Shown here piece after piece: positions 2,422-2,722 of a stretch of 39,552 nt of DNA. Source of the DNA: Sulfobacillus benefaciens. GTDB taxonomy: Bacteria > Bacillota > Sulfobacillia > Sulfobacillales > Sulfobacillaceae. The notes below the pieces were generated by a model that did not search any database, was not told the DNA's origin, and saw nothing but the letters and a program-made list of their open reading frames with translations. The DNA lies in the NCBI GenBank assembly GCA_003023725.1, contig PXYT01000034.1:26508-66059 (forward strand), in the 5' to 3' direction. The position numbers and the translations under genes are program-made. Numbering within the stretch: position 1 is the stretch's first letter; each line of letters starts with the position of its first letter.

Positions 2422-2450
2422 TTGGAGTTGCGTTTTATTTGGCATATAAT
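2422..2450 (+). promoter_or_regulatory. Promoter of the UGA-containing glutaredoxin gene
   Basis: -35 TTGGAG (2422-2427), a 17-base spacer and a perfect -10 TATAAT (2445-2450). The predicted start near 2457 leaves a leader of about 26 bases containing the ribosome site AGGTGG (2471-2476). An intact promoter argues against long-standing decay of the gene behind it. Confidence 0.6.
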
Positions 2451-2482
2451 AAGCGGGTAACTGAAATGAAAGGTGGAATCCG

Positions 2483-2722
2483 ATGAAAGTCATTGTTTAT
2501 ACACAACCGGGATGACAGGCTTGTAGCGAGGAGAAAGCGTGGCTTTCCCAACATCACGTTCAGTTCGAAGAACGCAACATTCGCGATAACATTTCTTACG
2601 TTGACGAAGTTGTGGCTCTTGGCTCGGAGTCTACTCCTACGACCATCATCGAAGACGAAAGTGGGCAACATATCATTGTGGGTTTCCGGATTCGGACGTT
2701 AAAAGATCATTTACAGTTGTAA
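2483..2722 (+). CDS. Candidate selenocysteine glutaredoxin-like protein (in-frame UGA at the first active-site position)
   Basis: Reading through one TGA (2513-2515) gives a complete 79-residue thioredoxin-fold protein: MKVIVYTQPG-[UGA]-QAC at residues 1-14, a helix, EERNIRDN (29-36), the cis-proline segment STPTT (50-54), VGF (66-68) and a last helix LKDHLQL before TAA. Length, order and motifs match short glutaredoxin/NrdH/YruB-like proteins, in which the UGA position is the nucleophilic cysteine of CxxC. The second cysteine (14) is present, so the motif would be UxxC. ATG 2483 has AGGTGG seven to eight bases upstream and an intact promoter. A SECIS-like hairpin follows the UGA. UGA serves as a normal stop elsewhere here (namA, lonC), so general reassignment is unlikely. 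The alternative is a pseudogene made by one Cys-to-stop change, or a sequence error. No selA/B/C/D gene is in the window. Confidence 0.62.
2530..2549 (+). promoter_or_regulatory. Candidate bacterial SECIS hairpin
   Basis: Directly downstream of the in-frame UGA: GG, bulged A, stem GAAAGC (2533-2538), loop GTG (2539-2541), stem GCTTTC (2542-2547), CC. That is eight base pairs with a single-base bulge on the 5' side. The loop begins with G, 24 bases after the UGA. Known bacterial SECIS elements have a short apical loop with a G in the first two positions, about 16-37 bases after the UGA. Confidence 0.5.

Follow-up and report, generated by a model that had tools for sequence, protein, structure and literature searches.

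A predicted selenocysteine-containing glutaredoxin-like protein with a SECIS-type stem-loop in Sulfobacillus benefaciens

Gene, reading frame and upstream signals

The DNA analysed here, a stretch of 39,552 nucleotides from Sulfobacillus benefaciens that is referred to as the window, carries a short glutaredoxin-like gene with one in-frame TGA. The features of this gene and of related loci are collected in Table 1. With the TGA read as selenocysteine (Sec), the translation was MKVIVYTQPG-U-QACSEEKAWLSQHHVQFEERNIRDNISYVDEVVALGSESTPTTIIEDESGQHIIVGFRIRTLKDHLQL, followed by the stop codon. This TGA was the sole one in frame and occupied codon 11 of 79, with 68 codons after it. Both the sequence and the translation therefore bore out the initial annotation, which had described a 79-codon frame interrupted only at the first position of a UxxC motif.

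The ribosome-binding site claimed upstream was found to be a good one. Of the promoter that had been proposed together with it, the −10-like element stood as a perfect TATAAT, but the −35 element was poor, and a consensus promoter scan reported nothing at TATAAT/TTGGAG upstream of the redoxin gene. The neighbouring genes of the window encoded a CoA-transferase, a thiolase and a short-chain dehydrogenase, followed by a lipoyl-ligase/2-oxoacid dehydrogenase cluster, and they gave no functional clue for the redoxin. Before the redoxin gene, positions 200-2440 of the window held about 2 kb of short overlapping ORFs with no convincing gene, possibly a decayed element. Plasmid searches returned no close relative.

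Table 1. Coordinates of the redoxin gene, its predicted signals and related loci (window positions unless a locus is named)
Feature	Coordinates	Strand	Remarks
Predicted Sec-containing glutaredoxin-like gene	2483..2722	+	79 codons plus TAA stop; open if TGA is Sec
UGA codon, predicted Sec, residue 11, first position of UxxC	2513..2515	+	at the catalytic Cys/Sec position of 47 aligned homologues
TGT codon, predicted resolving cysteine, residue 14 of UxxC	2522..2524	+	TGC/TGT in all motif-covering homologues
Ribosome-binding site AAAGGTGG	2469..2476	+	from sequence reading; purine-rich site at the same place in congeners
−10-like TATAAT	2445..2450	+	perfect match; common to two congeners (upstream alignment)
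Weak −35 TTGGAG	2422-2427	+	3/6 matches; 17-nt spacer to −10
Predicted bacterial SECIS stem-loop	2530..2549	+	5' arm 2530-2538; apical loop GUG 2539-2541; 3' arm 2542-2549
selD, itself a predicted selenoprotein gene (SGUGCK)	L119 3771-4706, G000 contig C84	+	plain ORF call begins inside the gene
Second predicted Sec-glutaredoxin, UPHC type (TTPT-U-PHC)	L199, G000 contig C90 32280-32498	-	one TGA
tRNA-Cys(GCA)	L012 1861-1953	+	
tRNA-Cys(GCA)	L013 1861-1953	+	
tRNA-Cys(GCA)	L015 1204-1294	-	
tRNA-Cys(GCA)	L016 1381-1471	-	

Fold and family placement

The protein matched the Pfam family PF00462 (Glutaredoxin) at an E-value of 3.1e-9; its score of 37.3 bits exceeded the family cut-off, which is 22.9. 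The AlphaFold model showed a compact glutaredoxin fold with a pLDDT of 96, and the structure comparison of this model gave Z-scores of 11-15 to glutaredoxin/NrdH structures, with BC3987 and cGrx1 as the top matches at Z 14.2-14.7. The best structural match was the Bacillus cereus thioredoxin-like protein BC3987 (PDB 3zij/3zit; Z 14.4-14.7; 31-32% identity), which is taken to be a cysteine protein without Sec. cGrx1 of C. (Alkaliphilus) oremlandii (PDB 7c10/7c12) had the same fold, with a Z-score of 14.3 and an rmsd of 1.0 over 74 residues. It is likewise a small single-domain glutaredoxin with the GF motif at the same place, and Sec natively occupies the first position of its UPxC/UxxC motif (PMC7642778, PMC4479559). 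However, cGrx1 comes from another organism and shares only about 30% identity with the window protein; the subfamily of the window protein has UQAC/UHAC where cGrx1 has UPxC, and STPTT where cGrx1 has its own cis-Pro segment. E. coli-type glutaredoxins contain a GGxDD segment; this was absent from the window protein, which has IIVGFRIRTLK at that place.

Among curated NCBIfam models, the nearest were Uxx_star/UXX-star (NF041212, NF041211, NF041114) and the YruB/NrdH-type models (TIGR02196, TIGR02194). The protein scored 52 bits with TIGR02196 (cut-off 88.6), 45.4 bits with the NrdH redoxin model TIGR02194 (cut-off 85.75) and 40.2 bits with Uxx_star NF041212 (cut-off 66). It lay below the cut-off for all curated NCBI family models, Uxx-star included, and eight further members likewise all stayed below cut-off in the models listed for each. 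Glutaredoxin (UxxC, PF00462) is a listed selenoprotein family with members in Geobacter sulfurreducens, Alkaliphilus metalliredigens and Moorella thermoacetica (PMC1794560). The likeness to these proteins lies in the family listing, whereas the members found of the window protein's subfamily came mainly from Sulfobacillaceae and relatives. Sec-glutaredoxins were known as a family before (PMC1794560, PMC13188914), and this kind of protein is not new; what is new is the window gene and a Sulfobacillaceae-wide subfamily below the NCBI family cut-offs. In the open-licence literature, no paper naming the window gene was found.

Conservation of the UGA codon, selenocysteine machinery and stem-loop

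Homologues were compared in 61 genomes, namely that of the window (G000) and 60 relatives from the genus, family, order and class. The redoxin was present in 40 of the 61. The codon aligned to position 11 was TGA in 38 of the 47 homologues and TGC/TGT in the remaining 9, and the TGA homologues were spread over 33 genomes of the order and class. A frame with such a TGA is far beyond chance, because the TGA is kept at the same codon in 38 homologues. Residues C/U11, C14, P52, G67 and F68 were invariant. Within the genus of the window, 7 of the 8 species carried TGA, which was the same in independent assemblies of these seven Sulfobacillus species; the eighth, S. thermotolerans (G005), carried TGC despite its retained Sec machinery. 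A minimum of six changes between TGA and a Cys codon was required on the tree, and at least three of them were forced by well-supported branches. The initial annotation had looked to related strains for an exchange of Sec and Cys at position 11, and a natural exchange of TGA, TGC and TGT was indeed observed, with related species keeping TGA. It had also counted TGC/TGT in closely related strains, together with a single intact paralogue elsewhere, as evidence against its reading, but the other glutaredoxin found in the genome was itself a UGA form.

The reading had further been made to depend on the presence of sel genes. selA, selB, selC and selD were all found in the genome of the window above curated cut-offs; the profile scores were 556 bits for SelA, 358 bits for SelB and 358 bits for SelD, and the tRNA-Sec, with anticodon UCA, scored 68.9 bits. 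selD lay on the contig of the redoxin gene, ending 8.3 kb upstream of it, and the two genes were about 6-19 kb apart in G002, G003, G004, G005, G006, G017 and G026. The 5.5-kb contig C15 of the same genome carried an odd 93-nt tRNA call (L188 1006-1098, minus strand; Glu CTC) that scored low with Rfam, at 32.7 bits, and that was next to tRNAs for Gln, Ala and Phe.

UGA could in principle be read here as Cys or Trp instead of Sec, either through a suppressor tRNA or because the genetic code as a whole has changed. A selC* tRNA-Cys with a UCA anticodon is reported from some Deltaproteobacteria (PMC7609411), and selC*-like tRNA-Cys are present in relatives within Sulfobacillus. However, every selC*-like tRNA found had the anticodon GCA, the genome of the window had none, and the sole UCA tRNA found was the tRNA-Sec: no other appeared among 47 tRNA hits plus tRNA-Sec, a tally that lacks Tyr, Asn and Ile and is therefore strong but not absolute. 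Elsewhere in the window UGA was an ordinary stop, terminating 6 of the 22 ORFs of at least 240 codons. With no second UCA tRNA found and UGA ending other long ORFs, the recoding is therefore local, and a general reassignment of UGA was rejected on the same two observations. In addition, TGA forms accompanied the sel genes, which were found in 31 of 33 genomes with a TGA form versus 4 of 7 Cys-only genomes (Fisher p 0.03, with the genomes treated as independent, which they are not). Taken together, these points make a reading as Cys or Trp highly improbable. Of the two TGA-form genomes without sel genes, one was 63% complete and the other was G019. The contig of G019 with the TGA-form redoxin (C120, L197) showed 100% identity over 1.4 kb with a MAG that has sel genes and belongs to a different genus, and by its sequence it was probably mis-binned.

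The part of the gene behind the TGA was then considered in terms of selection. The dN/dS was about 0.03-0.12 in codons 12-57 of the TGA-form congeners with unsaturated synonymous sites, and 0.076-0.115 for the window against four congeners with unsaturated synonymous sites. Such low values in codons 12-57 mean strong purifying selection, and the sequence after the TGA is therefore translated.

Behind the UGA, the window carried the stem-loop GG-A-GAAAGC-GUG-GCUUUCCC, with one bulged A, while most homologues had GAGAAAGC-GUG-GCUUUCUC. The element was compared with the four bacterial SECIS constraints as given in PMC13188914 and agreed with all of them: the 3-nt loop began with G, the stem was within 6-8 bp, the distance from UGA to the loop was 23 nt, and the MFE of the stem-loop alone was −8.6 kcal/mol. 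In the 37-row alignment of TGA forms, 90.9% of the stem cells were paired, versus at most 62.5% in slid-strand controls. Changes on both sides of a pair occurred in 23 cells of these 37 sequences versus 5.1 in shuffles, and the column pair 23/33 appeared as AU, CG, UG, GC and UA with no break. As a single sequence, the window stem had a modest z-score of −2.2, and none over 54 nt. The stem codons GAG-AAA-GCG-TGG-CTT were identical in 7 of 7 Sulfobacillus TGA forms, at a pairwise synonymous divergence from the window of 0.54-0.86 in codons 12-57. Three stem-region codons were changed in the Cys form of S. thermotolerans. At the protein level, AWLS occurred in most TGA forms, and the Cys forms carried other residues at that Ser. 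The frozen stem codons and the AWLS pattern are observed because the constraint acts on the RNA and not on the protein. Among the nine Cys forms, 58.3% of stem cells were paired, and the SECIS stem has mostly been lost in them. The exchange of TGA, TGC and TGT in close relatives, together with this loss, offers a clean natural series for the conversion of Sec to Cys.

A pseudogene or sequencing error, in which a Cys codon became TGA by mutation or miscall, would need only a single-base change from TGT/TGC and could point to the Cys form of S. thermotolerans, but it is ruled out by the TGA shared among 38 homologues from independent assemblies, the low dN/dS of the frame behind it and the covarying stem-loop, and we give it practically no weight. 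Collectively, the comparative evidence makes a strong case for UGA recoding with a local SECIS element.

Predicted function, associated tRNAs and distribution

As the initial annotation proposed, the gene almost certainly encodes a functional selenoprotein that belongs to the dithiol glutaredoxin/NrdH-like class, with Sec delivered by SelB at the UGA; the conserved TGA, the full sel set and the covarying SECIS-type stem-loop support this reading. SelB on the stem-loop would bring Sec-tRNA(Sec) to the UGA and so produce the UxxC active site. From the fold and the motif, we infer a redox chemistry with Sec11 as the nucleophile and Cys14 as the resolving residue. By analogy with known Sec-glutaredoxins, Sec11 would attack a disulfide or another oxidised group of a substrate, Cys14 would resolve the mixed species so formed into a selenenylsulfide, and re-reduction of the redoxin would fall to a low-molecular-weight thiol or to a reductase.

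The initial annotation had placed this gene in a lineage for which it knew of no described selenoprotein. This was mistaken: S. thermotolerans is reported to have the Sec-peroxiredoxin PrxU (PMC7409299), and there are also reports of Sec formate dehydrogenases from Sulfobacillus (PMC4378227). The Sec proteins that we found reported for the acidophilic, metal-leaching Sulfobacillaceae were all different from the redoxin, and a Sec-redoxin subfamily is now added to the selenoproteome of this group. PrxU is a reasonable guess as the predicted substrate of the redoxin. Ordinary gene finders would miss a gene of this form, and Sulfobacillus annotations probably omit or truncate this conserved redoxin.

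In four congeners (G001, G003, G004 and G005), a tRNA-Sec-shaped tRNA-Cys(GCA) of 91-93 nt was observed 30-207 nt 3' of the redoxin gene, with both on one strand. In these tRNAs, which have U73, the acceptor stem was 8 bp long and the T stem a clean 5 bp; they scored over the Rfam tRNA-Sec cut-off. The selC* class of tRNA-Cys, as described for Firmicutes and others in PMC7609411, has a bulged 4-bp T stem. Judged by sequence, the downstream tRNA-Cys(GCA) probably belong to this class, though their T stem is 5-bp and unbulged. No tRNA remnant was detected downstream of the window redoxin gene by a covariance model with the filters off; the best match (9.9 bits, E 0.08) lay on the opposite strand inside the next gene. 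Near tRNA-Cys homologues in other genera, no glutaredoxin gene was found within 1.5-kb flanks. It seems unlikely that, in the Sulfobacillus lineage, the Sec-redoxin gene and the tRNA-Cys(GCA) formed an ancestral unit that links the decoding of Sec to that of Cys, for instance in the form of a selenium-dependent switch, with the tRNA lost in the species of the window.

Beyond the class, members of the wider family were found in 72 genomes of a 249-genome phylum sample. About half of the matches listed in that sample carried one TGA, the position of which was not confirmed match by match; proteins of this fold in the phylum therefore probably often contain Sec. The genome of the window also contained the UPHC-type gene listed in Table 1, and this type of gene, with its TGA, was observed in G009 (L200) as well.
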